A stretch of DNA of 45,330 nucleotides from Chitinophagaceae bacterium (GTDB taxonomy: Bacteria; Bacteroidota; Bacteroidia; Chitinophagales; Chitinophagaceae). This document shows, in pieces, positions 14,001 to 30,179 of the stretch; within the stretch, counting starts at the first letter, position 1, and every line of letters begins with the position of its first letter. Under the pieces are notes generated by a model that saw only the letters and a program-made list of their open reading frames with translations, had not been told where the DNA came from and searched no databases. The stretch lies in assembly GCA_021299955.1 (NCBI GenBank), contig JAJTFQ010000056.1, forward strand, positions 1 to 45,330, written 5' to 3'. Position numbers and translations under genes: made by a program.

Positions 14001-14234
14001 CTTCCATACGCCGCCGGATGCAGCCCCGAGCCAGATATGCCGCGGGTCTTCAACGACAGCGTCCACCGCTGTGATGCGGCCGCTCATACCGGCCGGACCG
14101 ATGTTGCGGGGTTTCATGTCTGAGAAGCGCGACAGAACTGATGATGGTTGCTGGGCGAAACCGATAGGCCCGGAGAGGATGAGACCTGTCAGCATCAGGC
14201 AGGCTGCCAGACGGAGGGATTTTCCATGAATCAT
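11073..14234 (-). CDS. Large exported BNR/sortilin-like beta-propeller protein
   Basis: This is a 1053-residue protein with a signal peptide (MIHGKSLRLAACLMLTGLIL, cleavage near GFAQQ). Residues ~50-720 hold repeated BNR/Asp-box-like motifs: GGVWKTENGGMSW, GIYRTLDAGRTW, GVFKTTNGGASW, GLYMTVDGGRNW, GLYMSDDGGYHW, ISMSEDGGKTF, QLTRDGGRTW and FRTSDYGKTW. They are typical of multi-bladed propellers of the sortilin/VPS10-like or 'glycosyl hydrolase' BNR group. The C-terminal third (about 780-1050) has a beta domain (GRYTIVASLGDRQDTTLITV) and a helical tail. It is exported, probably periplasmic or surface-bound. No catalytic role can be assigned; database names such as glycosyl hydrolase are historical. 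It is upstream of the aminotransferase. Confidence 0.87.
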   Translation of the reverse strand: MIHGKSLRLAACLMLTGLILSGPIGFAQQPSSVLSRFSDMKPRNIGPAGMSGRITAVDAVVEDPRHIWLGAASGGVWKTENGGMSWTSVFDEQPILNVGSIAIQQNNPSTVWVGTGEGNPRNSLNLGEGIYRTLDAGRTWQRMGLEKTRNIHRILIDPLHPQTVYAGVIGNPYAPHPERGVFKTTNGGASWERILYTNDSSGIGDMIMDPANPNKIFAAMWQHYRTPWSLMSGGRGSGLYMTVDGGRNWKQLGKAEGLPDGHLGRIGLAISRSRPERVYALVEATKNGLYMSDDGGYHWSLVNSDPQWVTNRPFYFQDIACDPQNENRLWMINQMISMSEDGGKTFKNVIPYNGIHPDHHAFWIHPKDGNFIIDGNDGGIGITRDRGAHWIFDEKLPVGQFYHINVDNDMPYNVMGGMQDNGSWRGPAYIWSEGGIRNYHWKSLWSGDGFDVMPDPEDAEWVYAMSQGGSVGRYNVRTGQQWYIKPVSTDPAVRFRFNWNAAIAQDPFDKSTIYFGSQFLHRSASKGASWQTISPDLTTNDSAKIDQSKNGGLSLDITGAENFCTILTIAPSPLEKGVIWVGTDDGNVQLTRDGGRTWMNFRGKIPGMPVGGWIPQIQASRHVAGEAFVVCNDYRRGDMKPYIFRTSDYGKTWTRMVDEKKVTGYTLCVLQDPTEPNLIFTGSEQGLWVSLDNGITFERWKHGFPPVSTFDMAIQEREADLVIATFGRSIWVLDNIRPLRAHAAAKGKITKPFMLYPPPTAVQAQFTNPDGYEWSTWGLWEAQNRSREASISWFSDADTSAAERKKKGVDSIRIRIMDAQGRHVRELKMPSGSGFNRQYWGMESKGTRMPGSPKPKPGAPEYGGQPVMPGRYTIVASLGDRQDTTLITVADDPRLGDRTAVRQAQQALRDRLMQLAQPLTDAMDRLSEAEEAAGRIETAYKDDKGAMADSIRKSTKAVQDSIKTIREFISGKRSTAQGYGQVPRTTVMSQFQQALQAIGARPLPPAETEQALVEEAGRQLSVAVGRIEAWLGRSWPAYQELVKAHQPDPFRSK

Positions 14235-14301
14235 TTCGAAAAGAGTTTGCGCTGGTAAATTAAACATTAAATATCTTGTTCTTCAATTCAAACCGAAGCA
14301 T

Positions 14302-14907
14302 ATGCAAAGATTCACATTTCGTTTCATGGGCCTGACTGCCCTCGCCCTCGCATTCTCTACTACCCAGGCACAGGTGACCAAATGGGCCGTGGACAAAGCG
14401 CATTCCAATGTTAAATTCACCGTCACGCACATGGCGATCTCCGAAGTGGACGGAAGTTTCAAGGTATTCGACGGTACGATGGAGCACGCCAAGGCGGATT
14501 TCACCGATGCGAAGGTCAGCTTCACCATCGACGCCGCTTCTGTGAATACCGAGAACGGCGGTCGCGACAATCACCTGAAGGGTGATGACTTCTTCAACAC
14601 TGAAAAATTCCCCTCCATCAAGTTCGAAAGCACCTCAATGAAAGCACTGGGAGGTAACAAATATCAGCTGACCGGCAATATGACCGTTCGTGACGTCACC
14701 AAGCCTGTCACCTGGGATGTTACTTTTGGCGGTACACAGGCGACTCCCCGAGGCAAGAAGGCCGGCTTCAAGGCGAGGGCCACCATCAATCGTTTTGATT
14801 ACAACCTGAAATGGAACCGTGCGATGGAAGCCGGCGGACTGGTTGTCGGTGAAAACGTAGAGGTGGTCCTGAATATCCAAATGAACGAGGTGAAGGCAGC
14901 TCAGTAA
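14302..14907 (+). CDS. YceI-family periplasmic lipid-binding protein
   Basis: The 201-residue protein has a signal peptide ending STTQAQ. The mature part shows the YceI pattern: WAVDKAHSNVKFTVTHMAIS at the start, a central ENGGRDNHLKGDDFFNTEKFP (the D-x-H-L-x-x-x-D-F-F block), GNMTVRDVTKPVTWDV, and a C-terminal FDYNLKWNRAMEAGGLVVGE. The family forms a lipocalin-like barrel that binds polyisoprenoid or amphiphilic molecules in the periplasm. Length and motif order are complete. It is monocistronic and closed by a strong terminator. It starts divergently from the BNR gene with 67 bp between. Confidence 0.93.
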   Translation: MQRFTFRFMGLTALALAFSTTQAQVTKWAVDKAHSNVKFTVTHMAISEVDGSFKVFDGTMEHAKADFTDAKVSFTIDAASVNTENGGRDNHLKGDDFFNTEKFPSIKFESTSMKALGGNKYQLTGNMTVRDVTKPVTWDVTFGGTQATPRGKKAGFKARATINRFDYNLKWNRAMEAGGLVVGENVEVVLNIQMNEVKAAQ

Positions 14908-14928
14908 ACGAAGCTTCCATCATTGTTG

Positions 14929-14960
14929 AACAGGGCTGTCAGGATGCTGACAGCCCTGTT
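14929..14960. terminator. Terminator between yceI-like and msrB genes
   Basis: 14-bp perfect arms AACAGGGCTGTCAG / CTGACAGCCCTGTT with a 4-nt loop (GATG), between convergent genes. Short A and T stretches lie at its edges. Confidence 0.85.
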
Positions 14961-14972
14961 TCATTTAGGATA

Positions 14973-15533
14973 TCATCCTTTCTTGTACTTTTCTTCAGCC
15001 TTTTTGGCCTTCTCGAAATCGAGGATGACCCCATTGATGCAATAACGCAGGCCGGTGGGCGGTGGGCCGTCTTCAAAAACATGGCCGAGATGTGCTTCGC
15101 ACCGGCCACATTGCACCTCGGTGCGCACCATGCCATGCGTGCGGTCGACCAGGTAGATGATGCTTTCCTTTTTCACCGGCTGGTAGAAGCTGGGCCATCC
15201 GCATCCGCTGTCGAACTTGGTGTCGCTCAGGAAGAGCGGGTTACCGCAGGCGGCACAGTAGTAGGTACCCACTTCTTCGAATTTCTCGAATTTACTGGTC
15301 CACGGACGCTCAGTGCCTTTTTGCCGGGCGATGAAATACATTTCCGGTGTCAGCATTTTTTTCCATTCCGCGTCCGGGAGACTGACCTTTGCGCTGTCCG
15401 TCCGGGAATAAACAGCCGGTTTCTTGGATTCATCCTGCATGGATACCTGTTTTTTTTCGGGTCTGGGTTGTGAAAAACTGCAGTTCATGCCCGTGAACGC
15501 GAACATGAGCAGGAGTGTGCATTTGATATTCAT
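14973..15533 (-). CDS. msrB: Peptide-methionine (R)-S-oxide reductase, exported
   Basis: This is a 186-residue MsrB with an N-terminal signal sequence ([18 protein letters not shown]); a lipobox-like Cys18 makes either SPI export or lipidation possible. The MsrB domain (about 52-180) has the zinc tetrad Cys93/Cys96 (CAAC) and Cys142/Cys145 (CGRC). The GCGWPSF block is present, and the catalytic cysteine is Cys165 in RYCINGV. It reduces methionine-R-sulfoxide in proteins, and in the envelope it would repair oxidised exported proteins. It is likely to depend on a periplasmic thioredoxin-like donor. Confidence 0.93.
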
Positions 15534-15620
15534 ATGTATGTAACAAGTTGAATGTCGATCAGGTTCTGTCGATCGAGCGATTTACAGACAGAGCGGGACT
15601 GTGGAAATTGAAAATGTCGG

Positions 15621-15628
15621 TATATTTG
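15621..15628 (+). promoter_or_regulatory. Candidate -7 box for adk
   Basis: TATATTTG is a full match to the Bacteroidota -7 consensus TAnnTTTG, 33 nt upstream of the adk start. It supports the ATG at 15662. No clear -33 TTTG is seen. Confidence 0.5.
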
Positions 15629-15661
15629 GACACCGTTGCAAAGGAACGGAACCCTACCAAC

Positions 15662-16249
15662 ATGTTCAATCTCATTCTCTTCGGCCCTCCCGGCAGTGGC
15701 AAGGGCACACAGTCTGAAAAACTCATTGCAAAGTACGGATTCAAGCATCTTTCCACCGGGGATCTGCTCCGCAGCGAGATCGCGCGGCAGACACCGTTGG
15801 GGATGGAAGCGAAAAGCCTGATGGACCAGGGACAGCTGGTGCCGGATGCCGTAGTGATCGGAATGATCAGCAGTGCCCTGGAGGCGAATCCGGATGTCCC
15901 GGGTTTCCTGTTCGATGGATTCCCGCGGACGACGGCCCAGGCGGAGGCGCTGGACCGTCTGCTGACCGAACATGGTTCAGCGATCGGCGTGCTGATCGCT
16001 CTGCAGGTTCCGGAAGAGGAACTGATCGCTCGGATGTTGAATCGTGCCAAGACCTCCGGTCGCAGCGATGATGCGGACGAGCATGTCCAGCGCAACAGGC
16101 TGGCGGTGTATCGCAGAGATACGCTGCCCGTGTCGGATCATTATGCCCAGTTCGGCAAATCACTCTCCATTGAGGGGGTTGGTGGCATCGAAGAGATCTT
16201 CGGGCGCATATGCCAGGTGATCGACGAGCGGTCGTCGCAGGCCTCATGA
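15662..16249 (+). CDS. adk: Adenylate kinase
   Basis: The product is 195 residues, the short form without a long zinc LID. It has the P-loop GPPGSGKGT (8-16), STGDLLR for AMP binding, FLFDGFPRTTAQAEALD (FPR block), RSDDADEHVQRNRLAVYRRDT for the R-rich lid, and a C-terminal helix. It converts ATP + AMP into 2 ADP in the cytoplasm. The open frame extends 38 codons upstream, but MFNLILFGPPG is the natural start, with a -7 box just ahead. It ends before a terminator shared with convergent fabG. Confidence 0.95.
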   Translation: MFNLILFGPPGSGKGTQSEKLIAKYGFKHLSTGDLLRSEIARQTPLGMEAKSLMDQGQLVPDAVVIGMISSALEANPDVPGFLFDGFPRTTAQAEALDRLLTEHGSAIGVLIALQVPEEELIARMLNRAKTSGRSDDADEHVQRNRLAVYRRDTLPVSDHYAQFGKSLSIEGVGGIEEIFGRICQVIDERSSQAS

Positions 16250-16271
16250 TATTCAAATATGACCTTAAATG

Positions 16272-16305
16272 AGAAGCCGGACTATCCTGAGAAAGTCCGG
16301 CTTCT
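16272..16305. terminator. Terminator between adk and fabG
   Basis: Perfect 12-bp arms AGAAGCCGGACT / AGTCCGGCTTCT with a 10-nt loop between convergent genes. The T-tract is modest. Confidence 0.8.
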
Positions 16306-16327
16306 GTTCTTAGGGAACCACGCATGG

Positions 16328-17083
16328 TCAGATGTTCAATCCTCCGCAAACGCTGAGCACCTGTCCGGTCACATAGGCGCTCATGTCTGAAGCCAGGAAC
16401 AGAGTGGCGTTGCCGATTTCTTCTGCGCTGCCGAAGCGACCGAGGGGAATTTTATCCATGAATGCCTTGGCAGCATCTCCTTCCTTTAGATAATGGGTCA
16501 TATCCGTTTCGATGAAGCCCGGTGCAATGGCGTTGCAACGGATGTTCCGGCTTCCCAGTTCGTGGGCGACGGACTTGGTGAATCCGATGATGCCGGCCTT
16601 GCTGGCGGCATAGCTCGACTGTCCGGCATTGCCCCGGATGCCGATGATGGAGCTCATGTTAATGATGGATCCCCGGCGTGCCTTCATCATAGGTCGTATA
16701 ACCTGTTTGGTCATGTTAAAGACGCTTTTGAGGTTGACATCCATGACTTCATCCCATTGTTCGGGTGTCATGCGCAACAGCAGGTTGTCCTTAGAGATGC
16801 CTGCATTGTTGACACAGACATCGATCGCCCCGAATTCCTTGAGAACGTCGGCGACAAATTGTTCTGAAGCGGCAAAATCACCGGCATTGGTCTGCCAGGC
16901 GCGCGCGCGTACGCCCATATCACCCAACCGGGACACGAGAGACGCTGCGCGGTCGGCACTGCTGTCCGAAACGTAGGTGAAAGCGATGTGTGCTCCGTGT
17001 TCCGCCAGTTTGAGGGCGATGGCTTCTCCGATACCTCGGGCAGCTCCAGTCACGATGGCCACCCTGTCCTGTAATAGTTTCAT
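16328..17083 (-). CDS. fabG: 3-oxoacyl-ACP reductase (SDR)
   Basis: This is a 251-residue classical short-chain dehydrogenase. It has the NAD(P)-binding TGAARGIG (12-19), the NNAG motif, and the catalytic set Asn118, Ser145, Tyr158 and Lys162 (YAASK). FabG-like features are VNNAGISKDNLLLRM, the APGFIETDMT block and the C-terminal SAYVTGQVLSVCGG. It reduces 3-oxoacyl-ACP in fatty-acid elongation. It stands alone here, not with other fab genes, so another SDR substrate is possible, although motif agreement with FabG is close. Confidence 0.88.
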   Translation of the reverse strand: MKLLQDRVAIVTGAARGIGEAIALKLAEHGAHIAFTYVSDSSADRAASLVSRLGDMGVRARAWQTNAGDFAASEQFVADVLKEFGAIDVCVNNAGISKDNLLLRMTPEQWDEVMDVNLKSVFNMTKQVIRPMMKARRGSIINMSSIIGIRGNAGQSSYAASKAGIIGFTKSVAHELGSRNIRCNAIAPGFIETDMTHYLKEGDAAKAFMDKIPLGRFGSAEEIGNATLFLASDMSAYVTGQVLSVCGGLNI

Positions 17084-17232
17084 CTGGATGATAGTTTCCG
17101 GGGCAAGTTAAGGGATTGAGTGGAATGCAAGCCAAATCCCGGCTGACTAACCTGCCACATGGGAAATTGTTAAGGATTTTCAAAAATCTATAAAGTTACT
17201 TTGGACTTGGCATTTACCTTATTTTATCTGTA

Positions 17233-17262
17233 ATTTGCATAGTCAGTATTTGCATAGTCAGT
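17233..17262 (+). repeat. 15-bp tandem duplication upstream of the 123-aa gene
   Basis: ATTTGCATAGTCAGT is repeated exactly twice (17233-17247, 17248-17262) and followed by ATTTG, ending 18 bp before the start codon. Each joint creates TATTTG, reminiscent of the -7 TAnnTTTG box. Confidence 0.85.
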
Positions 17263-17280
17263 ATTTGAATTGGAAATTTC

Positions 17281-17652
17281 ATGATCGGAAGATATAACCG
17301 TCACATCAATGGGTTCATCGTCGTTTTTATGATGATGAACATACTATGGCTGACGGTGAGCCTGCCTTTCATTGCCGACAGCCGATCAGGCTGCACATCC
17401 GAACAGTCATCCACCGCAAGTGCTAACCCCTTTGATGCTCAGGCTGAGGATGCCGGTTTTCCACAAACAAGCGGTTCAGAGGAAAAGGCATCTGAGGGAT
17501 CCAACGGTTTCAACGAAGAATACCTTCATCATCATGAAGGATTGGAAGCCATGTCTGCGGAGGCGGGTAAGACATCTATGCACGACATCGCGCAGGACGC
17601 CTACTGCGCTTTCCATGGTGAGCTGCTGGTTCCACCCCCGAATGTCTGCTGA
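17281..17652 (+). CDS. Small single-pass membrane protein, unknown
   Basis: This 123-residue protein has an N-terminal hydrophobic anchor (about residues 11-31, NGFIVVFMMMNILWLTVSLPF). A long polar, low-complexity segment rich in Ser, Ala, Glu and Gly follows. Then come a short His/Glu patch (EEYLHHHEG) and a C-terminal block AYCAFHGELLVPPPN that looks conserved. Topology is probably N-in with the tail outside the inner membrane. It lies 129 bp ahead of the carbonic-anhydrase gene in the same direction and could be the first gene of that unit. I do not recognise a characterised family. The His patch could bind metal, which would fit zinc enzymes downstream, but this is inference only. Confidence 0.65.
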   Translation: MIGRYNRHINGFIVVFMMMNILWLTVSLPFIADSRSGCTSEQSSTASANPFDAQAEDAGFPQTSGSEEKASEGSNGFNEEYLHHHEGLEAMSAEAGKTSMHDIAQDAYCAFHGELLVPPPNVC

Positions 17653-17781
17653 GCTGTTCCTGCCGATCTAGCGTCCCGTCACGGGGCCATTTCAAATTTT
17701 TCTATTGTCCACAAACGGAAACGAGTGACACGTATGTCAACTCCATTATAACTAATGTCTATTACTATAAAATCGTATGTT

Positions 17782-18453
17782 ATGAGAAAGCATTCCAAGG
17801 AATTTCTGCAGAACCTCACCCCGGAAAAGTGCCTGGAGATCCTGAAAGAAGGTAATCTGAGATTCATAACGAACCTGAACAAGGATCATGACCACCTCGA
17901 AATGGTGAATGAAACAAGAGAGGGTCAATATCCCTTTGCCGTTATCTTGAGTTGTATGGATTCCAGGACCTCGATAGAGCTTATCTTCGACCAGGGGCTG
18001 GGAGACCTGTTCAGCATCCGTGTGGCAGGTAATATTGTGAACGATGATATCCTGGCCAGTCTGGAATATGCCTTGAAATACGTCGGCTCTAAGCTGCTGA
18101 TCGTTCTTGGGCATACCGGCTGTGGTGCCATCAACAGTGCGAAGAAAGGCGTAAAGGATGGTCATATCACGGGACTCTTGCAGCGAATGCAACCGGCCAT
18201 CAGCAAGTCGATGCTGAAGAGCGGCAGCTCTTGCCGTTTCGGAGACACGGTGGCCTATTCCAACGTGGAAAACAGTCTTGAAGAGATCCTGACCCGCAGC
18301 AACACGATCAAGGAGATGTTCCAGTCAGGAGATATCGGACTGGTCGGAGGCATGTACGATGTAACCAGCGGAGAGGTAGACTTCTTCATGGATCTGACCA
18401 CCAAATATCAGGTAACCACTTCCCAATATGCCCTTCAGGCAGAAGCCGTTTAA
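17782..18453 (+). CDS. can: Beta-class carbonic anhydrase
   Basis: The protein is 223 residues from MRKHSKEF. A start nine codons earlier (17755) is possible, but homology seems to begin with LTPEKCLEILKEGNLRF. The zinc site is complete: Cys58 and the Asp60-Arg dyad in SCMDSR, and His111 and Cys114 in LGHTGCG. The family interconverts CO2 and bicarbonate in the cytoplasm. The gene ends 3 bp before a SulP transporter gene and is followed by dabA and dabB, so this is an inorganic-carbon operon. No signal peptide is seen. A pH-gated type II form is possible but not checked. Confidence 0.93.
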   Translation: MRKHSKEFLQNLTPEKCLEILKEGNLRFITNLNKDHDHLEMVNETREGQYPFAVILSCMDSRTSIELIFDQGLGDLFSIRVAGNIVNDDILASLEYALKYVGSKLLIVLGHTGCGAINSAKKGVKDGHITGLLQRMQPAISKSMLKSGSSCRFGDTVAYSNVENSLEEILTRSNTIKEMFQSGDIGLVGGMYDVTSGEVDFFMDLTTKYQVTTSQYALQAEAV

Positions 18454-18456
18454 AAT

Positions 18457-20034
18457 ATGATCACTTTCAAGTTTCTGAAGTCGGACCTTATGTCCGGCAT
18501 GGTTGTTTTTCTGGTAGCACTACCGTTGTGCCTGGGCATCGCTGTAGCCAGTGGTGCGCCCCCCTTTGCGGGGATCATCACCGGAGTGATCGGTGGCATC
18601 CTGGTAGGTAGCATGAGTCATTCAAATGTAAGTGTGAGTGGACCGGCAGCTGGTCTTATCGCGATCATCCTCGTGGCGGTCACGGATCTCGGCTATGAAA
18701 CCTTTCTGGCTGCGGTTGTCATCGCAGGTCTGATCCAGCTTTCGCTGGGCCTGGCAAAAGCGGGAGGGATCTCCAGTTATTTTCCGACCAGTGTCATAGA
18801 GGGGATGCTCGTGGCGATTGGCATCATCATCATCAAGAAGGAGCTCCCGCATGCGATTGGTTATGATAAGCTGCACGAGGGTGATTTCTTCAACTATGAA
18901 GTGCTGGCATCAACCGAAGGCGGTTTTTTTACGGAGATCATTCACGCCTTCAATTACGCCCACCTCGGAGCGCTCATTGTAGCTGTGGTATCGATTTTGA
19001 TCCTGATCGCCTTCAATAAGGTCGCCCTGTTGAAGAAGATCAAGGCGATCCCGGGTGCGTTGGTGGTCGTTGTAGCCGGTGTATTGCTGAACGAACTATT
19101 CAAGGCTTCATTCCCTTCCCTGGCCATTTCTGCAGAACATCTGGTAACACTTCCCACGGCTTCATCCTTTGGAGAATTCATCGGGCAGTTCCAGTTCCCG
19201 GACATGCAGGGGTTTCTGAATCCAAATGTGTGGATTGTAGGTGCCACGATCGCCATAGTAGCCAGTATCGAGACCCTGCTCTGCCTGGAAGCCGGCGATA
19301 AAATGGACCCTTACAAGCGGTTTTCCAGTGCCAATGCCGAACTGAGGGCCCAGGGTGTTGGAAACATTGTCGCAGGGTTCCTCGGCGGATTACCCATGAC
19401 ATCTGTGATCGTGCGCACAACTGCCAATATCAATGCAGGCGCACGCACCAAGTTATCTGCCGTGGCGCATGGTGTGTTCTTATTGTTGGCCGTTGTCCTG
19501 ATACCCGGACTGCTGAACCGCATTCCGATGGCCAGTCTGGCAGGCATCCTGATCATGATCGGCGTGAAACTCGCCAGCCCGAAAGTGTTCAAACATATCT
19601 GGCATACAGGGAAACATCAGTTCATCCCCTTCATAGTCACAGTCTTAGCCGTGGTGTTCACCGATCTGCTCAAGGGTGTGGGCATTGGTCTGGTCGTCAG
19701 CATCTACTTCATCCTGAAGGGCAACATGAAACTGGCCTATTTTTTCCGAAAGGAAAACCACCAGGCAGGTGAGACGATCCATATCGACCTGGCACAGGAG
19801 GTTTCATTTTTGAACAAGGCCGCCATCAAGCAAACGCTGGCAGATCTGCCATCAAAGAGCCATGTGGTGATCGATGCAGTACAGACCGTGTACATCGATC
19901 ACGATGTGCTGGAACTGATCCGTGATTTTGTGAACCATGGGTCAAAGGACAGGGAGATCCGGGTGGAATTGAAGAATTTTAAGTCTGCGTATCGGATGGA
20001 GGGGTTCACCCATGTTCACTCTGAAAAAGACTGA
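18457..20034 (+). CDS. SulP-family anion (probable bicarbonate) transporter
   Basis: This 525-residue protein has a SulP membrane domain of about 14 helices. Typical landmarks are GMVVFLVALPLCLGIAVASG, the SVSGPAAGL loop and the GGLPMTSVIVRT region (conserved anion-site neighbourhood). A C-terminal STAS domain (about 430-525) ends in the YIDHDVLELIRDF helix. SulP carriers move sulfate, bicarbonate or other anions. Tight placement between a beta-carbonic anhydrase (3 bp gap) and dabA (5 bp gap) argues for bicarbonate, as in BicA-like systems. Ion specificity cannot be proved from sequence. Confidence 0.92.
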   Translation: MITFKFLKSDLMSGMVVFLVALPLCLGIAVASGAPPFAGIITGVIGGILVGSMSHSNVSVSGPAAGLIAIILVAVTDLGYETFLAAVVIAGLIQLSLGLAKAGGISSYFPTSVIEGMLVAIGIIIIKKELPHAIGYDKLHEGDFFNYEVLASTEGGFFTEIIHAFNYAHLGALIVAVVSILILIAFNKVALLKKIKAIPGALVVVVAGVLLNELFKASFPSLAISAEHLVTLPTASSFGEFIGQFQFPDMQGFLNPNVWIVGATIAIVASIETLLCLEAGDKMDPYKRFSSANAELRAQGVGNIVAGFLGGLPMTSVIVRTTANINAGARTKLSAVAHGVFLLLAVVLIPGLLNRIPMASLAGILIMIGVKLASPKVFKHIWHTGKHQFIPFIVTVLAVVFTDLLKGVGIGLVVSIYFILKGNMKLAYFFRKENHQAGETIHIDLAQEVSFLNKAAIKQTLADLPSKSHVVIDAVQTVYIDHDVLELIRDFVNHGSKDREIRVELKNFKSAYRMEGFTHVHSEKD

Positions 20035-20039
20035 AACGC

Positions 20040-22604
20040 ATGACGGGGAATCCTCAGGGGCGTTTTGATGCGGAGCAAGTTTTGCATGAGCTGAGCCATA
20101 TGCTGCCCGCACAACAGTCCCTGAAGGATTTCATCCATCATAATTCGTTACATGCCTTTCAGGACCGAAAGTTCTATGATGCTATTTTCGAGGCGGCCGA
20201 TCTGTTCGGTCATCAAGTGCATCTCGAGCTGAAAGATTACCGGGGATTGCACCTGAGCGGACGCATTCGGACCGATATACTGAAAGCTGTCATCTTCAGA
20301 AAAAAAGGGGATGATACCGACTGGGAAGAAAAGATGCTGCATGGCATCTATGACGAAGCCCGTCATCCCAGGATCGGGCGACTCCGGGCCCTTTGGAAGT
20401 CGGCATGCAGCATAGACCTGGACGAACTTGTACACCCCCGGTCGTTTCGCATCTTATGTGCATACCTCGACCAGGGGATCGCCGGTCGATCGTTTCCGGT
20501 AATTGACGGCGGCTTCACGGAAGACCTCAGGAAGATGGACAGCCGGAGTGTCATCAGCCTGTTCAGGACCCGTTCGGTTCGTGACATTTTCCAACGGGGC
20601 GCATACACGCTGGAAAGTCTGCTGGAGCGACTGGTGGGCGACCCGGCATATTACCGACAGTACCTTTTTGACAGCCATTTCGCCCATCCGGGATGGAGTG
20701 GTTTTGTCAGTGCTGTCGAAAAACATCCCAAGACCTTGCTGGATCCCCGCAGGATCGATCTCAGGTCCTGGGTGGAATTTGAACTATTGATGGAAATCGA
20801 CGCCCTGACCGCGGAACTTGGTGACCGATGGTCACCGATCTCCCGCCATGCATCCTTCCCTCCGGACGATTTTACATCAAGTCACTACAGATCCGAATAT
20901 GCTCAGGTCATTGAACTGTGGCAGGATGCTTTTGAATGGAGTTACTATGATGCTGTGCTGAAGGGTCTGCAGTGCGCCGATCTGATGCGAAAAACAGGCA
21001 AGGGCGATGCCCCAATGCCTGAATCTGATGACAGACCTACGTTCCAGGCGATCTTCTGCATCGACGAACGGGAAGACTCCCTCCGTCGCCATCTGGAGGC
21101 CATGGATCCCGGTTGCGAAACTTTTGGCGCTCCCGGATTTTTTGGGGTGGAGTTCTATTTCCAGCAAGAAGGGAGTGTGATCTACGACAAACTCTGTCCG
21201 GCACCGGTCACCCCCGCCTATCTGATCAAAGAAACCAGATCCGGACATCGCAGAAAGGGAGAACTGTTGTATGCCCGTGATTCTCATCATTTCCTCAAAG
21301 GGATCGGATTCAGTCTCGTATTCGGCGCCCTGGCCTTCGTGAGGATGGCTCGGAATCTGATCCGTCCCACCATGAGTCCGGCGATCTCCAATGCGTTCGG
21401 GCATATGGATACGGATTCTGATCTCAGTATTGAAAATCATGATCCATCGGATCGTGAAAACGGACTTCAGATCGGATATACTGTTGAAGAGATGACCGCG
21501 CGTGCCGTTGGTTTCCTCAAGGGCATCGGACTGACAGATCGTTTTGCACCCTTCGTATACATTGTCGCCCATGGCTCGAGCAGCGCGAACAACCCGCATC
21601 ATGGGGCACACGATTGTGGTGCCTGCAGCGGCAGGCCGGGCGCCGTGAATGCACGGGTCATGGCGTTCATCCTGAATCATCCGGATGTTCGCCGGTCGCT
21701 TCAAACCCGGGGCATATACATTCCGGAAACTTCCAGGTTCATGGGATGTATGCACGATACGGCAGCGGATGTGATGGGCTATTATGATGAACGAAAATTG
21801 GATGCGCAAGCCCTGCACAGGCATGCGTCGATCAAAAGCATCTTTGAAGACGCGCTGGACCTGAACGCCAAAGAACGCAGCCGCAGATTTGCATCCATCG
21901 ATACCCGTCAGAGGCTCCGGCATGTCCGAAAAGCGATCCATGACCGGTCGGTATCCCTCTTTGAACCCAGGCCTGAACTCGGACATGGCACCAACACACT
22001 GGCCATCATCGGCAGAAGATCGATCACCCGGCGGCTATTCCTGGACAGGAGGGCATTCCTCAACAGTTATGATCCGATGCAGGATCCGGAAGGAGATATC
22101 CTGAGTGCGGTGATGCGACCCATCGGCCTGGTTTGTGGCGGCATCAACCTGGAATACTACTTCAGCCGGGTGGATAATATCCGGATGGGTGCGGGCACCA
22201 AACTCCCACACAATGTCATGGGATTGTTCGGTGTAGCCAATAGCAGTGATGGCGACCTAAGGCCGGGTCTGCCGTGGCAGATGATCGAAGTACACGACCC
22301 GGTGCGGCTCATGGTGATCGTGGAACATCGCCCGGAGATCGTTCTCAAGGCTGTGCAGTCATCCCCCGCCGTTTTTGAATGGTATGCCAATGAATGGGTG
22401 CATCTGGTATCGTTTGATCCGGAGACCGGCGCCCTGCATTATTTCAGGAACGGAACGTTCGAACCATACCTGCCGCTTACGCGCGAGGAGGAGATCGGAA
22501 GCATTCGGAACATGACGGAATTCCTCGAATCCGCCCGGGAGATGGAAACCAACCACATCATCGACGCCACAGAAGAGAACCTGCCGGTACTGTTGCTGGA
22601 ATGA
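20040..22604 (+). CDS. dabA: DabA, carbonic-anhydrase-like subunit of the DAB inorganic-carbon complex (DUF2309)
   Basis: The 854-residue protein has the full length of the DUF2309/UPF0753 family. It opens with the conserved QQSLKDFIHHNSLHAFQ. The zinc site reads Cys340-x-Asp342 (IFCIDERED), His511 (VAHGSSS) and Cys526 (HDCGAC). Spacings of 2, 169 and 15 residues nearly match the Cys351/Asp353/His524/Cys539 set of the characterised Halothiobacillus DabA. Known DabA is a cytoplasmic, membrane-bound enzyme that hydrates CO2 vectorially when coupled to the DabB ion channel. It follows the SulP gene by 5 bp and precedes dabB by 49 bp. The partner gene is broken in this sequence, which bears on function. 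Confidence 0.94.
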   Translation: MTGNPQGRFDAEQVLHELSHMLPAQQSLKDFIHHNSLHAFQDRKFYDAIFEAADLFGHQVHLELKDYRGLHLSGRIRTDILKAVIFRKKGDDTDWEEKMLHGIYDEARHPRIGRLRALWKSACSIDLDELVHPRSFRILCAYLDQGIAGRSFPVIDGGFTEDLRKMDSRSVISLFRTRSVRDIFQRGAYTLESLLERLVGDPAYYRQYLFDSHFAHPGWSGFVSAVEKHPKTLLDPRRIDLRSWVEFELLMEIDALTAELGDRWSPISRHASFPPDDFTSSHYRSEYAQVIELWQDAFEWSYYDAVLKGLQCADLMRKTGKGDAPMPESDDRPTFQAIFCIDEREDSLRRHLEAMDPGCETFGAPGFFGVEFYFQQEGSVIYDKLCPAPVTPAYLIKETRSGHRRKGELLYARDSHHFLKGIGFSLVFGALAFVRMARNLIRPTMSPAISNAFGHMDTDSDLSIENHDPSDRENGLQIGYTVEEMTARAVGFLKGIGLTDRFAPFVYIVAHGSSSANNPHHGAHDCGACSGRPGAVNARVMAFILNHPDVRRSLQTRGIYIPETSRFMGCMHDTAADVMGYYDERKLDAQALHRHASIKSIFEDALDLNAKERSRRFASIDTRQRLRHVRKAIHDRSVSLFEPRPELGHGTNTLAIIGRRSITRRLFLDRRAFLNSYDPMQDPEGDILSAVMRPIGLVCGGINLEYYFSRVDNIRMGAGTKLPHNVMGLFGVANSSDGDLRPGLPWQMIEVHDPVRLMVIVEHRPEIVLKAVQSSPAVFEWYANEWVHLVSFDPETGALHYFRNGTFEPYLPLTREEEIGSIRNMTEFLESAREMETNHIIDATEENLPVLLLE

Positions 22605-22653
22605 GCGCGCGGTTCCCTTCGTCACCCAACATACATACCATCCAGTTCCCGCC

Positions 22654-24433
22654 ATGGACCAACTGTTACAAACCGAACTGCTTCTCCTGTTCACCGCCAT
22701 TCCCCTGTTGGGATTCCTGGCGACCCTTCCCTGGGATAATCGCCAGGAACGCGTTATCGCCGGCATTGTGCGGGTGACGAAGGTGGTATACGCACTGGTG
22801 GCAGTAGGCTATGCCCTGGCCTGGTGGTGGACGGGCAGCCCGGATGCCGATCACACCCTGGTAAGCCTTTTCGAGAAGGAAGGATTTATTTTCAGCGTGG
22901 TCTTTCGTTACGATGCGATGACTGCCGCCTTCAGCATCACCGGTGCGCTGCTGTTCCTCGTGGTGGCGACATTCAGTAAGTATTACATGCATCGGGATGA
23001 AGGCTACAAACGTTATTTCAATACCATCCTGCTGTTTGCCTTTGGCTACAACCTGATCGTGCTCTCCGCCAACTTCGAAACGCTGTTCATCGGATGGGAG
23101 ATCATTGGCATCTCATCCTTCCTGCTCATCGCCTTCTACCGTAAAAGATATCTGCCGGTGAAGAATGCATTCAAGGTGTTGTCATACTATCGCATCAGTG
23201 ATGTGATGCTGATGCTCTCCATGTGGATGATGCACCACCTGACCCACCGGAACATCCTCTTCGATGAACTTGGATCGGTGGCCGCTGAAACCGTCGCCAC
23301 CCACCGCGAGGGCATGGCTTCCTTCATCGCGGCCATGCTGCTGGTCGCCGCGATGGTGAAATCCGCCAGCTTTCCCTTCTCGCATTGGCTGCCCAGGGCC
23401 ATGGAAGGCCCCCTGGGTCAAACCGGCATTGATCATCATCGGAGTGGTCACTGCCCTGACAGCCGGTCTGTCAGCTTCTGTTCAACCTACGGTCAAAACC
23501 CAGATCGCCTATTCATCGGCGGCGCAGATCGGCATCATCTTTATAGAAATCGCCATGGGTTTTCATACCCTGGCGCTCTGGCATATCATGGGCAATGCCT
23601 TCCTCAGGACCTATCAACTGCTGGTTTCTCCATCGGTGTTGAACTACCTGGTACATCACCAGTACTTTCATGCCCACAAGAGGTCAGACAAAGCTCCGGG
23701 CCGCGTCCGATCGACGTTGTATGTGCTGGGTTTGAGGGAATGGATGACAGATGATCTGTTTCATCGCATTGGATGGAAAGGCCTGAAGCGACTGGGTTCC
23801 GTCTCTTTTCTGTCGAATCCGGACCGCATCGGCCCGATACAATTCCTTGGTGCGCTTTCTCTGTTCATAATTTCACGGGTACCCGTTCGGTATCCGGCCG
23901 GAATGACCATCCTCCTCATCTATCTTATGATATTGATGGCTGTCTTCGTCCTACTGCGCGGATTCTCACACCGGGGCGGGGCGATGGGTGTCTGGCACAG
24001 CCTGCCGATGGCCCACCTGCTGATCCTGGCCTCGATCCAGTTCAACGGGGCACAGATTCCAATGATCGAACTGACCTATTATCTGAGTGGCGTTATCATC
24101 GCCTGGATGGCCGGTTTCTGGTGCCTGCGCAAGACCCGGGAGATCTCCCCCGATCTGAGCCTGAAGGGCTTTCATGGTAATGTGTACGCTTCGAAGGGAT
24201 TGACACTTGGCTTTCTGCTGGCCGCAGTGGGCATGTCTGGCTTCCCGCTGACGGCAACCTTCATCGGCGTGGATCTGATCTTCACTTATGTGCATGAGGA
24301 TCAGTACCTGCTGGCGGGCATCTTGGGATTATGTTTCTTCGTAATGGAACTGTCTGCCGTGAGGATATTCCTGAGGATCTTCAACGGCCCCCATCCGATG
24401 CTGACGCATCCGGTGGCGCTGCGATCCTCCTGA
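22654..24433 (+). pseudogene. dabB: DabB (NuoL/MrpA-like proton channel) with internal deletion and frameshift
   Basis: The first frame (from MDQLLQTEL) reads as a NuoL-like antiporter subunit through GWEIIGISSFLLIAFY (conserved TM Glu) and KSASFPFSHWLPRAMEGP at about 23413. It then turns into nonsense. Homology resumes in another frame at about 23418 with WVKPALIIIGVVTALTAGL and continues to the stop at 24433. Roughly 30 residues expected between AMEGP and this point (the broken-helix TM7/TM8 region of the proton path) are missing, and the total length is 3n+1. Without the damage it would be the membrane partner of DabA, feeding ion-motive force to CO2 hydration. This could be a pseudogene or an assembly error; upstream and downstream portions are otherwise well preserved. 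Confidence 0.88.
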
Positions 24434-24457
24434 TCATTTTTCGGTTATGCGTTACCG

Positions 24458-25987
24458 TCAGCACGCAGGTGCATCCTGCTGATGGGTATGTTCCAGGATA
24501 TCTTCCAGAAATCCTCTGTCGTTCGAAAGCCGTGGGACCTTGTGTTGTCCACCAAGTTTGTTCTTGGAGCGCAGCCATCCGTCGAAGGTGCCGGGTTTCA
24601 TGACGTGTACCACGGGCATTCTGAGGGCGATGTCGCGGTAACGTTTTGCGTCGTAATCGCTGTTCTGTACCCGCAGTTCCCTGTCGAGTGTTTCGGTAAA
24701 AGCGGCGATGTCTGCGGGTTCTGTCTCGAACTCAATGAGCCATTCGTGGCTTCCGTTGCCTTCGTCGCTGAAATAGACCGGACCTGCGGTGTAGTCTTTC
24801 ACTACGGCACCAGTGTGATGACATGCTGCGGCGAGGGCTTTGTCTGCATTATCTACGATGAGTTCCTCCCCGAAGGCGTTTATATAATGTTTCAGCCTGC
24901 CGCTGACGCGGATCCTGTAGGGCTGAAGGGAGGTGAACTGCACCGTATCGCCGATCAGATAGCGCCAGAGTCCGCCATTGGTACTGATGACAGGGGCGTA
25001 ATGCCTGCCTGGCTCCACCTTGTCGAGGCCGATCGTCTGTGGATCCGGCTTTCCGTATTCAGAAACGGGCATGAACTCCCAAAAGACACCGTGATCCGGA
25101 AAAAGCAGCATGCCGTCTTCATCCGGCTTGCCCTGAGCGGCGAAAAAACCCTCGGAGGCGTTGTACATTTCGAGGTAATGGATGTCGGCTCCGATGATCC
25201 GTTGGAACTGTTCCCGGTAGGGCACGAAGGAGACTCCGCCATGCATGTAGAGTTCCAGGTTCGGCCATACTTCGCGGATGCAGGATTTACCGGTGATCTC
25301 CAGGATGCGTTTGAAGAGTACCAGGGTCCAGGTAGGCACACCTGAGATCGACGTTACATTTTCATGGATGGTATTCTGCGCCAGCATTTCGATCTTGGAT
25401 TCCCATTCGTCCATCAGCGCGATGCTGAGTTCGGGCGTCCGGATCCAGTTGCCATAAAAGGGAGTATTCTGGAGGAGTACAGCGCTGAGATCTCCAAAAT
25501 GAGTGTCTTCGTTGTGTTGATGGATGGTATGACTGCCCCCGATGATCAGTCCTTTTCCGGTGAGGAGATCGGATTCAGGATTGAAATGATAGTACATCGT
25601 CAGCACGTCCTTCGCTGCCTTGTAGTGCATATCCTCCAGGCTTTCCTGACTGACTGGGATGAACTTGCTGCGATCGGAGGTGGTGCCGCTGCTCTTGGCA
25701 AACCAGTGGATGGGTGTATTCCACAGCAGGAGCTGCTCGCCGTTCATCGTTCGCTCGATGTAGGGCTTGAGATCGTCATATTCCTGGATGGGAACGGCCG
25801 CCTTGAAGGCCTTGATGGTAAAAAGGCTGGAAAAGCCATACTTGCGGCCGAACTCCGTATATTGGGCCGAAGTCACCAGGTCTTGCAACACTTCGCGCTG
25901 AGCAGCGATCGGGTTGGCGATCACGGACTCAATCCTCCACATGCGGAGGCTGGCGAGCCGGGAGATAGCGGGACTCAGCAGTTTCAT
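24458..25987 (-). CDS. GH3-family (auxin-responsive-promoter type) acyl-adenylate enzyme
   Basis: This 509-residue protein of the GH3 fold (ANL superfamily) has no signal peptide. Features are a P-loop-like WFAKSSGTTSDRSKFIPVS for ATP/AMP binding, YNASEGFFAAQ (adenylate-binding motif), LYRYLIGD-like GLWRYLIGDTVQF, and the C-terminal swivel region ending KNKLGGQHKVPRLSNDR. Plant GH3 proteins conjugate acyl acids to amino acids. Bacterial members are widespread in Bacteroidota but their substrates are unknown. Its start is 36 bp downstream of lptB on the same strand, so it is probably co-transcribed, hinting at an envelope or lipid role. Confidence 0.87.
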   Translation of the reverse strand: MKLLSPAISRLASLRMWRIESVIANPIAAQREVLQDLVTSAQYTEFGRKYGFSSLFTIKAFKAAVPIQEYDDLKPYIERTMNGEQLLLWNTPIHWFAKSSGTTSDRSKFIPVSQESLEDMHYKAAKDVLTMYYHFNPESDLLTGKGLIIGGSHTIHQHNEDTHFGDLSAVLLQNTPFYGNWIRTPELSIALMDEWESKIEMLAQNTIHENVTSISGVPTWTLVLFKRILEITGKSCIREVWPNLELYMHGGVSFVPYREQFQRIIGADIHYLEMYNASEGFFAAQGKPDEDGMLLFPDHGVFWEFMPVSEYGKPDPQTIGLDKVEPGRHYAPVISTNGGLWRYLIGDTVQFTSLQPYRIRVSGRLKHYINAFGEELIVDNADKALAAACHHTGAVVKDYTAGPVYFSDEGNGSHEWLIEFETEPADIAAFTETLDRELRVQNSDYDAKRYRDIALRMPVVHVMKPGTFDGWLRSKNKLGGQHKVPRLSNDRGFLEDILEHTHQQDAPAC

Positions 25988-26023
25988 GCGGCGCAGGGGT
26001 GCTTCACGTTGTCTTTGAATCGG

Positions 26024-26800
26024 TTACGCGCCCTCCTTATCCAGGCGGGCCTCTTCGTGAAGATAGTCTTTTCTTTTGAGTTCGAAGTTGCGCCCGAGGT
26101 AGAGTCGGCGGACATGTTCATCCTCTGCCAGTTCTTCCGCGGTACCATGCTTGAAGATCTTTCCTTCGATGAGCAGATAGGCCCGGTCGCAGATGGACAG
26201 GGTCTCGTTTACGTTGTGATCGGTGATCAGGATGCCGATGTTTCGGTACTTGAGGCGGGCGACCACCGACTGAATGTCCTCGACGGCGATGGGATCCACC
26301 CCGGCAAAGGGCTCGTCCAGCAGGATGAATTTCGGATCAACGGCCAGGGCACGGGCGATCTCGGTCCGTCGGCGTTCTCCTCCACTGAGGGAGTCGCCGT
26401 TATTGTGGCGGACATGTGTGAGTCTGAACTCCTGCAGGAGATCCTCCAGTTTCTGCTTTTGCTGACGCCGATCCAGCTTTGTCATCTCCAGCACGGCGGA
26501 AATATTCTCCTCCACCGTCAGTTTACGGAAGACGGAGGCTTCCTGCGGCAGGTATCCGATGCCCATCTGCGCCCGTTTGTACATCGGGAGCCTGGTGATA
26601 TTTTGCTGATCCAGGAAAACCTGGCCTTCATCCGGTTTGATGAGGCCCACCACCATGTAAAAAGTTGTTGTCTTTCCCGCTCCATTGGGACCGAGCAGAC
26701 CCACGATCTCCCCCTGACGCACTTCCACGGACACCTGGTTGACCACGGTGCGGTTCCGGTATCGCTTGACAAGCTGCTCAGTGTGGATGACAAGACTCAT
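26024..26800 (-). CDS. lptB: LPS export ABC transporter ATPase LptB
   Basis: The 258-residue ABC ATPase has Walker [10 protein letters not shown] (37-45), an LSGGERRR signature, Walker B FILLDEP and the switch ITDHNV. LptB-specific features include [34 protein letters not shown] and [19 protein letters not shown]. Length is close to E. coli LptB with a slightly longer C-terminus ([19 protein letters not shown]). It powers extraction of LPS from the inner membrane with LptFG, which are not in this window. It is transcribed divergently from metF. Confidence 0.93.
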
Positions 26801-26921
26801 AAGGGTCTGTGGATTGATCCGATGAAATTGACATCAAAGTTACGCAAGATTCGCGTGTGGACGCGAACATCCGTGCCATTACACACGTTCTACTGCCTGA
26901 AAGCTACAGAGAATAATCTCT

Positions 26922-26929
26922 TACTTTTG
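26922..26929 (+). promoter_or_regulatory. Promoter -7 box for metF
   Basis: TACTTTTG matches TAnnTTTG exactly, 23 nt upstream of the metF start. The implied transcript has a very short leader, so no SAM or cobalamin riboswitch is present in front of this gene. Confidence 0.5.
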
Positions 26930-26952
26930 CACATCAACACACCAGACTCCGG

Positions 26953-27906
26953 ATGAAAGTCATAGATCACATCAATCAGGCGAAAGATACCCTTGTCTCC
27001 TTCGAGATCCTGCCCCCGCTGAAGGGTAAGACCATCAGTTCTATTTACAACCACCTGGACCCGCTGATGGAGTTCAAGCCCTCCTTCATCAACGTGACCT
27101 ATCACCGAAGCGAACATATCTTCAAGAAAAAAACGGACGGCACCTTTGAAAAGGTGGAAGTACGCAAGCGCCCGGGCACCGTAGCCATTTGCGCAGCGAT
27201 CATGAACCACTACAAGGTGGATGCCGTACCGCACCTGATCTGCGGAGGTTTCACCAAAAGGGAAACGGAAGACGCCCTGATCGATCTGAACTTCCTGGGC
27301 ATCGACAATGTGCTGGTGCTCCGTGGCGATGCCACCAAGAACGAAGCATCGTTCGAACCGGAACCCAGTGGCAACAAATATGCACTGGACCTGCTCAAGC
27401 AGGTGTCCGATCTCAACAACGGCATCTATCTCGAAGAAGATATCCGGGATGGTTCAAGGACCAGTTTCTGCATGGGTGTGTCCGGCTATCCGGAAAAGCA
27501 TTTTGAGGCGCCGAACATGGAAACGGACATGCATTTTCTGAAAAAGAAGATCGAAGGTGGCGCAGATTATATTGTCACCCAGATGTTCTTCGACAATAGT
27601 AAATACTTCGCTTTTGTCAATGCCTGTCGCGCAGAGGGTATCAACGTACCCATCATCCCGGGTCTGAAACCGATCACCAATAAGAAACAGCTGACGGTCA
27701 TTCCCCGCACCTTTCATGTCGACATTCCGACTGAGCTTAGCAACGGCATACTTCGTTGCAAGACCGATGAGGAATGTGAAAAGGTCGGTGCCGAATGGCT
27801 GCTTGCACAGTCCAGGGAGCTCAAGGCCGCAGGCGTGCCCGTCCTCCACTACTACACACTTGGAAAGCCCAAACTGATCTACAAGGTCGTGAAGGAGATC
27901 TTCTAG
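26953..27906 (+). CDS. metF: Methylenetetrahydrofolate reductase
   Basis: This is a 317-residue single-domain bacterial MetF. Landmarks: VSFEILPPLKGK at the start (the conserved catalytic Glu region), FINVTYHRSE, the long VPHLICGGFTKRETEDAL stretch with the folate/FAD loop, NVLVLRGDA, MGVSGYPEKH, and QMFFDNSKYFAFV, with GLKPITNKKQL near the C-terminus. It reduces 5,10-methylene-THF to 5-methyl-THF with FAD, supplying methionine synthase. It is monocistronic here and converges on the TlpA-like gene. Confidence 0.95.
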   Translation: MKVIDHINQAKDTLVSFEILPPLKGKTISSIYNHLDPLMEFKPSFINVTYHRSEHIFKKKTDGTFEKVEVRKRPGTVAICAAIMNHYKVDAVPHLICGGFTKRETEDALIDLNFLGIDNVLVLRGDATKNEASFEPEPSGNKYALDLLKQVSDLNNGIYLEEDIRDGSRTSFCMGVSGYPEKHFEAPNMETDMHFLKKKIEGGADYIVTQMFFDNSKYFAFVNACRAEGINVPIIPGLKPITNKKQLTVIPRTFHVDIPTELSNGILRCKTDEECEKVGAEWLLAQSRELKAAGVPVLHYYTLGKPKLIYKVVKEIF

Positions 27907-27942
27907 GGCAAGCTTGCCGCCTGAGCGCTGAACCGGAGACAG

Positions 27943-29418
27943 CTATTTCTTCACAGCCGGAGCCGGAGGTGCAGAGGCTTTGACCTTCAGTTGAAGTAAT
28001 TCATCTATCTGACTGTAGTTGAGGCGTTTGGCTATGATACGTTTCTCCTTGTCCAGCAGGTAGAGCATTGGTGTCTGATAGACATCATATAATTGCCTGA
28101 AGGTGGGTCGGCCGGCCTTGACATCCGCATCCTTCATGGCATCGGTCTGATAGACGTGCAGCCATCCCTTCAGGTTCTTCTTTCGGATGAATTCTTTCCA
28201 CTTATCGAGTCCGCCATCGGTCATCATCCCGATCATGGCGACGCCCTGCTTCTTCCATTTTTGTTGAAAGAGTGTATCCAGGTGGGGGACTTCCTCCTGG
28301 CAGTGTCCGCAGGTGGGGTCCCAGAAGCATAGCACGGTGTAGGGCGCATTCTGGGCGTAGAGGTTACTCTTCCGGCCAAGGGAGTCGATGAAATCGAAGT
28401 TTGCGGCTTTTTTTCCGATGACGTTGGCCATGAGGCTGTAGCCCCTGTCGAAGATGAACTTCTTGTATTTTTCATTCATCCAGCTATCCGCCTGGCCGGT
28501 GATGAAATACTTTTCGAAGAGATGCACGAACACGGCATCCTGGCCCATGTACTGAGGATTCACATATTTGTCTGTCAGCGTAGCGAGGAGGTATTTGAAC
28601 ATTTCGGGATTCGAGCGGGCTGCGTCGATGGTTTCGCTGGCGGCCATGATGAGTGAATCCGGATGCTGGGGGAGGATCTCGCCGAAGAAGCGCTCGAGGC
28701 GCTGCTGGAAGACGGGTGTACGGATGAGGCGTTCGTCTGTCAGGGAGATGTTATCCCAGTAATGCGCCTTGTAATACTGATAGGCGTAGAGGGAGTCGTA
28801 TTTTCCGCCGGGGTGTTCGGCAGCCGGGGGGATCGTCGGTTCTTTCAGCACATGGAAGATGGCGGAGAGCAGGTGCTCCGGATGTTGCCGCATGATCCCA
28901 TCGCGATAGGCGGTGAGTTCGGTGCTTTTGGCCTGCATTTCGGATTTCAGGTCGGTCTGGGCTTCGGGGGCAGCCTGGGCCAGCTGTTGCTGGAGGCGGT
29001 TCAACGCGGAACCCAGTTCAAAGGATTTCCGCTGATATTCAACGAAGATCTCATTGGCCGGTGAGCCGGTGAAGCGGATGGAGCCCATCGGATCACTGGT
29101 ATCCGCTTCCACGGAAAACCGCTGTTCGCGGTCGATCATGCACTCTATCCAGCCATTCTTTTCGGGATAGGCGATCATGTACACGCCACCCATCAGGCGT
29201 TCCTTACCGGTAAAAACAGCGTTGCCCTGTTCGTCTATCCGGGCGGAATCTACGAGGTACTGCTTCTTGCCGTAATGGTGGGCCAGATAGAGGTATCCCT
29301 GCTTAAAGGGACGGATAGAGGCCTTGATCTCATAGGCGGGCGACTGAGCGCCGGCGATGAGGGTGGTGAACGCCAGGCAGGCGAGCAGGGCGGCTTTGCA
29401 GACGATGGATCGGGTCAT
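27943..29418 (-). CDS. TlpA-like thioredoxin-domain protein with N-terminal DUF4369-like and central helical domain
   Basis: This 491-residue exported protein (signal peptide MTRSIVCKAALLACLAFTTL, cleavage near AGAQ) has three parts. About residues 28-125 form a beta-rich DUF4369-like domain (YEIKASIRPFKQGYLYLAHHYGKK). About 130-330 is a helical DUF5106-like region. The C-terminal thioredoxin fold (about 335-475) carries the CGHC redox site (Cys370/Cys373, FWDPTCGHCQEE) and cis-Pro loop YQTPMLYLLD. It acts in the envelope as a disulfide reductase or oxidase, probably in cytochrome maturation or stress repair; the partner is unknown. It ends with an Ala/Pro-rich tail. Confidence 0.9.
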   Translation of the reverse strand: MTRSIVCKAALLACLAFTTLIAGAQSPAYEIKASIRPFKQGYLYLAHHYGKKQYLVDSARIDEQGNAVFTGKERLMGGVYMIAYPEKNGWIECMIDREQRFSVEADTSDPMGSIRFTGSPANEIFVEYQRKSFELGSALNRLQQQLAQAAPEAQTDLKSEMQAKSTELTAYRDGIMRQHPEHLLSAIFHVLKEPTIPPAAEHPGGKYDSLYAYQYYKAHYWDNISLTDERLIRTPVFQQRLERFFGEILPQHPDSLIMAASETIDAARSNPEMFKYLLATLTDKYVNPQYMGQDAVFVHLFEKYFITGQADSWMNEKYKKFIFDRGYSLMANVIGKKAANFDFIDSLGRKSNLYAQNAPYTVLCFWDPTCGHCQEEVPHLDTLFQQKWKKQGVAMIGMMTDGGLDKWKEFIRKKNLKGWLHVYQTDAMKDADVKAGRPTFRQLYDVYQTPMLYLLDKEKRIIAKRLNYSQIDELLQLKVKASAPPAPAVKK

Positions 29419-29493
29419 GCAACAAAAATATCCAAAATCGGATTGTCTGCCTGTTAATGTCGAAGGAAAGACGGATTGACTTAGTTTAGCTTC

Positions 29494-30123: not shown

Positions 30124-30179
30124 CAAAAAGGTCTCAGTCAAAAGCCGGGGATGGTTGTCCAATCAATAAAAATCGGAAG

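Follow-up and report, generated by a model that had tools for sequence, protein, structure and literature searches.

A carbonic anhydrase, SulP and DabAB cluster with an apparently interrupted dabB, in a variable chromosomal slot of a genus of Chitinophagaceae

Why heterotrophic bacteria carry a carbonic anhydrase (CA), a bicarbonate carrier, a pump of the DAB type, or several of these together is the question raised by a gene cluster of a Chitinophagaceae bacterium (assembly GCA_021299955.1, contig JAJTFQ010000056.1). The window analysed here is this entire contig (45,330 nt; G000:C119), and its source, G000, is a metagenome-assembled genome (MAG) of 3.0 Mb in 219 contigs with a completeness of 76%. 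Genes for CA, a SulP-family transporter, DabA and DabB follow each other on the forward strand with gaps of 3, 5 and 49 bp, a co-directional layout reported in the first-pass annotation, with which the coordinates of the open reading frames (ORFs) and the Pfam matches agree. The same annotation called the cluster complete, but as sequenced dabB is split into two ORFs that lie in different frames and lacks about 92 nt, and a fifth gene at the head of the cluster, orf17281, had been overlooked. On balance, we consider the locus to be probably an inorganic-carbon supply cassette of a heterotroph, in which SulP and CA form the core, while DabAB is dispensable and in this genome likely inactive. 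Every enzyme of the cluster belongs to a known family; what is new here is the turnover of the chromosomal slot, the counted combination of CA, SulP and DabAB, and the orf17281 family. In the literature searched, to which most subscription papers did not belong, we found neither the four-gene cluster of Bacteroidota nor the slot or orf17281 described.

The reading frame of the beta-CA (17782..18453, forward strand) opens at 17755, and the protein could begin with the ATG at 17755 or with that at 17782; the latter is favoured because the DNA alignments of the region to two genomes of the same genus, G390 and G392, start there. The protein matches Pro_CA (Pfam, 128 bits) and possesses the zinc ligands Cys, His and Cys together with the Asp-Arg dyad (motifs C67-D69-R71 and H120-C123, numbered from 17755); inspection by eye revealed no signal peptide. 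Between G000 and its near relative G365 (95% amino acid identity) it is tightly constrained, with a ratio of non-synonymous to synonymous divergence (dN/dS) of 0.03. The adjoining SulP-family transporter, a putative HCO3- carrier (18457..20034, forward strand, 525 amino acids), matches Sulfate_transp with 181.5 bits (Pfam cut-off 23.2) and shows no Pfam STAS match. Bicarbonate is most likely its substrate, as judged from its linkage to CA, which adjoins SulP in 29 of the 30 genus slots having sequence on both sides of SulP. Against this assignment stands the score with the NCBIfam model of BicA, which at 117 bits falls short of the equivalog cut-off of 880. Pfam and TIGR call the family sulfate permease, and the window also encodes two sulfatases (38785-40326 and 40327-41907), so that the transporter might be a sulfate carrier, perhaps tied to these enzymes, and its position beside CA incidental. 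We regard this as quite improbable, given that CA keeps its place next to SulP even as the types of both proteins change, and that both SulP and CA accompany DabA in 28 of the 52 named DabA loci with enough flanking sequence (these loci belong to the best 80 of at least 560 confirmed matches, a sample biased to relatives).

DabA itself (20040..22604, forward strand, 854 amino acids; PF10070, 671 bits) is intact. The first-pass annotation had pointed to an active site formed by Cys340, Asp342, His511 and Cys526, and this site is indeed present: C340, D342, R344, H511 and C526 align with C351, D353, R355, H524 and C539 of the solved DabA2 (9rd0_A), and all five residues are conserved without exception in the 116 full-length sequences compared (the window and 115 sequences from 123 submitted loci). 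The proteins may differ in the finger motif: at the position that corresponds to Glu444 of DabA2, an acidic residue is present in just 1 or 4 of the 116 sequences, depending on the alignment, as phmmer and MAFFT place Glu444 differently. This glutamate belongs to the proton pathway, and according to the accessible part of the DAB2 study its change abolished activity (PMC13144422). Given this finger region, coupling may differ from that in DAB2. The region corresponds to window residues 418-446, and Lys or Arg occupies position 435 in 100 of the 116 sequences. In another genome of the same bacterial family (G309:C72) DabA occurs in two pieces with in-frame stops, possibly a further decaying dabA.

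Is the DAB complex functional in this genome? The two ORFs that make up dabB lie at 22654-23754 and 23429-24433. The 5' piece (22654..23413, forward strand) carries residues 1-253 in frame and matches Proton_antipo_M, as does the 3' piece (23429..24433, forward strand), which continues in another frame and is open to the native stop; between them, at the lesion (23413..23428), the frame shifts. Conserved landmarks on either side of this site are 16 nt apart in the window, as compared with 108 nt in 114 of the 117 other loci that could be judged, some of which represent the same genome in two collections (one locus was not judgeable and five with a single dabB piece were excluded); the remaining three have 99, 102 and 111 nt. 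In all 117, dabB runs in frame and without stops across the lesion site, and only the window and its copies (L001, L025) are broken. The missing stretch falls in the helix after the AMEGP motif and corresponds approximately to residues 253-283 of DabB2, as estimated by offset from the match ranges and not by residue alignment, a span that includes S256 and H260, at both of which alanine impaired DAB2 activity (PMC13144422, accessible part). Programmed frameshifting is ruled out, because about 92 nt are absent rather than one or two. No second dabB copy was found in G000. As sequenced, the window thus combines DabA with a damaged dabB instead of an adjacent intact NuoL-like DabB, and holds no DAB complex; the earlier idea of three systems acting together finds no support in this genome, dabB being broken as sequenced.

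Several observations weigh against a genuine loss of DabAB. Both dabB pieces are open to their native ends and not specially fast-evolving, and the lesion must therefore be recent or artificial; their divergence from outgroups somewhat exceeds that of their counterparts in G392, but the same is true for CA and GH3. A second contig of the same MAG, C3 (L235), repeats window positions 25219-29999 at 99.7-99.9% identity while lacking 25946-26094 (149 nt, a deletion that cuts LptB and GH3) and 28605-28745 (141 nt), and both missing stretches are present or nearly so in the alignments with G363 and G365, the two nearest relatives. These junctions look spurious, like faulty joining, and that in dabB could be of the same kind. 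Moreover, the relatives possess a Tyr at the position of the helix-8 His of NuoL, and for this reason the effects of residue changes in DAB2 may hold only approximately for these dabB genes. If the break is an assembly artefact, the locus would be a functional CA-SulP-DabA-DabB cluster that combines HCO3- uptake with CO2 hydration and equilibration; the retention of every active-site residue in DabA, the lack of any dab-specific rate increase, the single lesion in otherwise open frames and the intact clusters of relatives are all in keeping with it. We take this to be a serious possibility, if a little short of even. It has to be set against the rarity of indels elsewhere in the window, where roughly 27 kb comparable with G365 or G363 contain just one indel of at least 9 nt (35 nt at 30039), and against the two nearest relatives, which also lack DabAB but by other routes, so that loss is expected in this lineage. 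Mainly because neither near relative has DabAB, we put the chance that the dabB lesion is real at somewhat better than even. The 35 nt missing at 30039 relative to G363 are not a multiple of three, and the ORFs 29494-30123 and 29931-32597 overlap there. Wrong binning of the contig is ruled out by the LptB identities to 20 other genomes of the genus: the window protein shares 98-99% identity with its counterparts in two of them and 85-90% with those in 17, and G371 showed no ortholog.

That DabAB is dispensable is suggested by the genus as a whole, for which 41 genomes including G000 were compared (the relatives are MAGs, and single cases may be assembly faults). One chromosomal slot, with a FabG-like reductase (16328..17083, reverse strand) as its conserved left flank and a GH3-family protein (24458..25987, reverse strand; OlsH-like, below the curated cut-off) as its conserved right flank in the window, holds alternatives: CA-SulP-DabAB, CA-SulP, SulP with a small CA, or a small CA alone. 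Here CA_A denotes the window type and CA_B a beta-CA of about 215 amino acids that is about 32% identical to it, and SulP_A and SulP_B are about 50% identical; some contigs show one flank only, and that of G383 none. CA_A occurs together with DabAB in six genomes (G390, G391, G393, G364, G392, G000), although the slots of G364 and G392 are each distributed over more than one contig, G364 yielded no SulP, and dabB is broken in G000. It accompanies SulP ends and dabA scraps in G365, and SulP_A without dab genes in two genomes (G369, G376). SulP_A-CA_B fills the slot in six (G235, G361, G370, G372, G380, G394), SulP_A without adjacent CA in one (G367), and SulP_B-CA_B in 15 (G308, G362, G363, G366, G373, G374, G377, G378, G379, G383, G386, G387, G388, G396, G398), while two carry CA_B alone (G381, G382). 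The slot is cut after SulP_B in G384 and G397, cut with an undecided filling in G368, G375 and G395, and was not located in G371, G385 and G389. Outside the slot, G361 and G398 possess another DabA. We consider DabAB dispensable because the slot is repeatedly found without it or with another SulP-CA pair.

Comparison of single genomes illustrates this turnover. Between G390 and G369 the flanks are 94 and 92% identical and fabG-CA-SulP 89%, but the 4.5 kb of DabAB are absent between SulP and adk in G369; G376 resembles G369, and in G373, G366 and G362 the same flanks enclose SulP_B-CA_B. With flanking DNA 88-94% identical, G390, G369, G376 and G373 present three different fillings of one slot and thus amount to a natural experiment. 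Nearest to the window stands G365 (orf17281 98% and LptB 98% identical), which is syntenic with it over 1095-18516 (82-86%) and 24415-28439 (84%). Its 4.4-kb dab region is reduced to DabA fragments (approximately residues 18-90 and 329-443), followed by GH3, and its SulP runs off two contig ends; the DabA remnants, compared with G000, give dN/dS values of 0.11-0.14 and are less constrained than CA. G363 is 94% identical to the window at the nucleotide level from GH3 on and carries a different SulP-CA pair (SulP_B-CA_B). No DNA match to dabB was found in either G365 or G363. A tree of GH3-LptB-MetF joins G000 with G363 (0.987), whereas the FabG tree joins G000 with G365 (0.988) and leaves the FabG of G363 apart; from this discordance we infer that the slot side has been exchanged, most simply in G363. 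It speaks against this account that the G363 junction lies within a MAG contig and could be chimeric. In the simplest order of events the common ancestor of the window genome and its near relatives would have possessed DabAB; alternatively, G000 might have gained DabAB late, by recombination.

How common are such clusters beyond this slot? DabA was found in 29 of 198 genomes of the order, 16 of 195 of the family (15 above the cut-off) and nine of 41 of the genus. Within the genus, SulP (34/41, fragments included) and CA of either type (36/41) far outnumber DabA (9/41, counting the scraps of G365), and the genes do not form a fixed unit. DabB adjoins DabA in all 52 named loci whose flanks are long enough, a same-strand SulP in 42 and CA in 28, and SulP and CA are both upstream in 25. 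The survey for a conserved can-sulP-dabA-dabB arrangement that the first-pass annotation had suggested thus bears out the clustering. Among the 30 of the best 80 loci with both genes upstream, SulP-CA-DabA (22) prevails over the CA-SulP-DabA of the window (8). The surveyed clusters include those of Flavobacterium laiguense and a Methylotenera MAG. CA-SulP-DabAB clusters are common in Bacteroidota, and the arrangement of the window is not the unusual one it had been taken for. DabA and DabB also occur in two records of Candidatus Saccharibacteria, one of them a complete chromosome (L071 7001-11407, L108 7001-11384; DabA 51-53% identical to that of the window), which is unexpected in a small-genome lineage.

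What, then, would the module serve? The heterotrophic, anaplerotic role suggested in the first-pass annotation gains support from a phosphoenolpyruvate (PEP) carboxylase in G000 and in 39 of the 41 genus genomes, and from the nature of the only RuBisCO-family (PF00016) match in G000 (G000:C34, L164, 2560-3804). This protein is matched best by OiaX, 3-oxo-isoapionate-4-phosphate decarboxylase (493 bits, below the cut-off of 700), and the kinase beside it by OiaK (365 bits, cut-off 700); the pair points to sugar catabolism rather than CO2 fixation. PF00016 matches occur in just two of the genus genomes, G000 and G390 (G390:C57, L165, 4724-5977), and both also carry DabA. We reject RuBisCO-based autotrophy, only this OiaX-like protein having been found in the 76% complete MAG (other autotrophic pathways were not searched for). 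SulP would import HCO3-, the cytoplasmic beta-CA would interconvert CO2 and HCO3-, and the two would supply PEP carboxylase along with further carboxylases. Where relatives have an intact dabB, the proton-motive force would additionally drive CO2 hydration by DabAB; in G000, with about 92 nt covering a core helix of dabB lost, DabAB would probably be inactive and SulP and CA would carry the function. DabAB may be useful only in some settings, hence its patchy distribution. Free cytoplasmic CA beside active HCO3- accumulation would leak CO2 and undo a concentrating mechanism, and for this reason we read the module as one of supply and not of concentration. CA, SulP and the antiporter-like subunit are each capable of moving or buffering protons as well, and pH homeostasis, through proton consumption or supply via HCO3- and CO2, is among the options proposed for the can2-sulP pair of Acidithiobacillus in the accessible text of PMC6458275. 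That the cluster serves this end in place of feeding carboxylases seems unlikely to us in view of the wide occurrence of HCO3--using PEP carboxylase in the genus and of the at least partial interchangeability of CA and MpsAB for growth in air in other heterotrophs (accessible parts of PMC8567241, PMC6689103 and PMC8552792).

A supply cassette with a SulP-CA core shares features with several known systems, which are compared here as far as the accessible parts of the cited papers go. With DAB2 (DabA2-DabB2) of Halothiobacillus neapolitanus it shares the DabA family, the five active-site residues and a neighbouring gene for a NuoL-like DabB; apart from the possible difference in the finger motif it is distinguished by the broken dabB, the adjoining SulP and CA, and the lack of any RuBisCO proper among the matches. 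MpsAB of Staphylococcus and Bacillus is likewise a pair of PF10070 and PF00361 proteins serving heterotrophs (PMC6689103), and a putative CA lies immediately downstream of it in S. sciuri, B. anthracis and B. subtilis (PMC8552792). In contrast to the window cluster, S. aureus has MpsAB alone, and neither a SulP gene nor a small leader gene is mentioned next to MpsAB in the accounts consulted. One S. sciuri strain seems to have truncated versions of MpsA and MpsB (PMC8552792). CA and MpsAB were described as largely interchangeable, rarely coexisting and without added benefit together (PMC8552792, PMC8567241), a rule of rare coexistence that the clusters counted here do not fit. MpsAB outperformed CA in Staphylococcus (PMC8552792), which weighs against our view of DabAB in that it disfavours its being merely redundant; the same Firmicutes study saw MpsAB as advantageous under hampered CO2 diffusion, observed no gain in growth from having both, and could not clearly explain the distribution. 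The can2-sulP genes of Acidithiobacillus ferrooxidans encode a beta-CA beside a STAS-less SulP predicted to carry bicarbonate, and can2 transcripts fall as CO2 rises; this species, however, is an autotroph, and no DabAB is described beside the pair (PMC6458275). Genes of the sulfate-permease family near ybcC-nuoL pairs appear in COGNAT neighbourhoods, an account in which CA, a slot of Bacteroidota and a small leader gene do not appear (PMC5700660). Finally, anaplerotic use of inorganic carbon has been proposed for proteorhodopsin-bearing Bacteroidetes with CA and a putative Na-dependent bicarbonate transporter, DabAB not being mentioned there (PMC4148732).

The newest part of the cluster is orf17281 (17281..17652, forward strand), which encodes 123 amino acids with one N-terminal membrane helix, an acidic middle and, in most members of its family, a C-terminal [FY]HGEL..PPP motif. 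The window member has no Pfam or NCBIfam match at E up to 1, and other members only weak, scattered ones; in the predicted structure, poor overall (mean pLDDT, the per-residue confidence score, 60), only a helix near residues 11-27 is confident. We regard it as a real protein because each of the four pairs tested has a dN clearly lower than its dS. Searching the 195 genomes of the family with an alignment built from members beside such clusters, a search not itself restricted to them, yielded 49 matches in 45 genomes, 47 of which (window included) lie directly upstream of SulP, CA or DabA, while the other two are truncated at contig ends. Among the 30 matches with loci (window included), 28 have one of these genes directly downstream on the same strand, and each of the remaining 19 has one within 2.5 kb. 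With the window sequence as query, orf17281 was found in five of the 41 genus genomes. We give even chances to the proposal that orf17281 represents an unnamed membrane-anchored family dedicated to SulP/CA bicarbonate modules, perhaps a SulP accessory subunit or sensor, and that the adk/fabG/GH3 slot is a site of module exchange in heterotrophs. If so, the family would be a new component to test, and the choice between SulP-CA and DabAB would become testable among near relatives.

Some minor observations concern the surroundings of these genes. Window positions 17000-17780 are 93-100% identical to L150 (G365) over the start of fabG, the intergenic DNA and orf17281, whose dS is 0.064 as against 0.5-1.3 in neighbouring genes; such low divergence would be consistent with a recombination tract or with constraint at the DNA level. 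Several Chitinophagaceae clusters (L045 13258-13707, L040 3365-4003 and similar ones) carry a second small beta-CA, which lies upstream of orf17281 in divergent orientation, and in L045 a second orf17281 copy heads another SulP. Over window positions 16900-25000 no Rfam match was obtained at E up to 1. A promoter scan gave six sites where 6.3 are expected, and there were 14 terminator-like sites where 5.6 are expected. The GC content of the window is 54.3%, and that of the regions compared within the genus (L136-L149) ranges from 36.5 to 52.7%.

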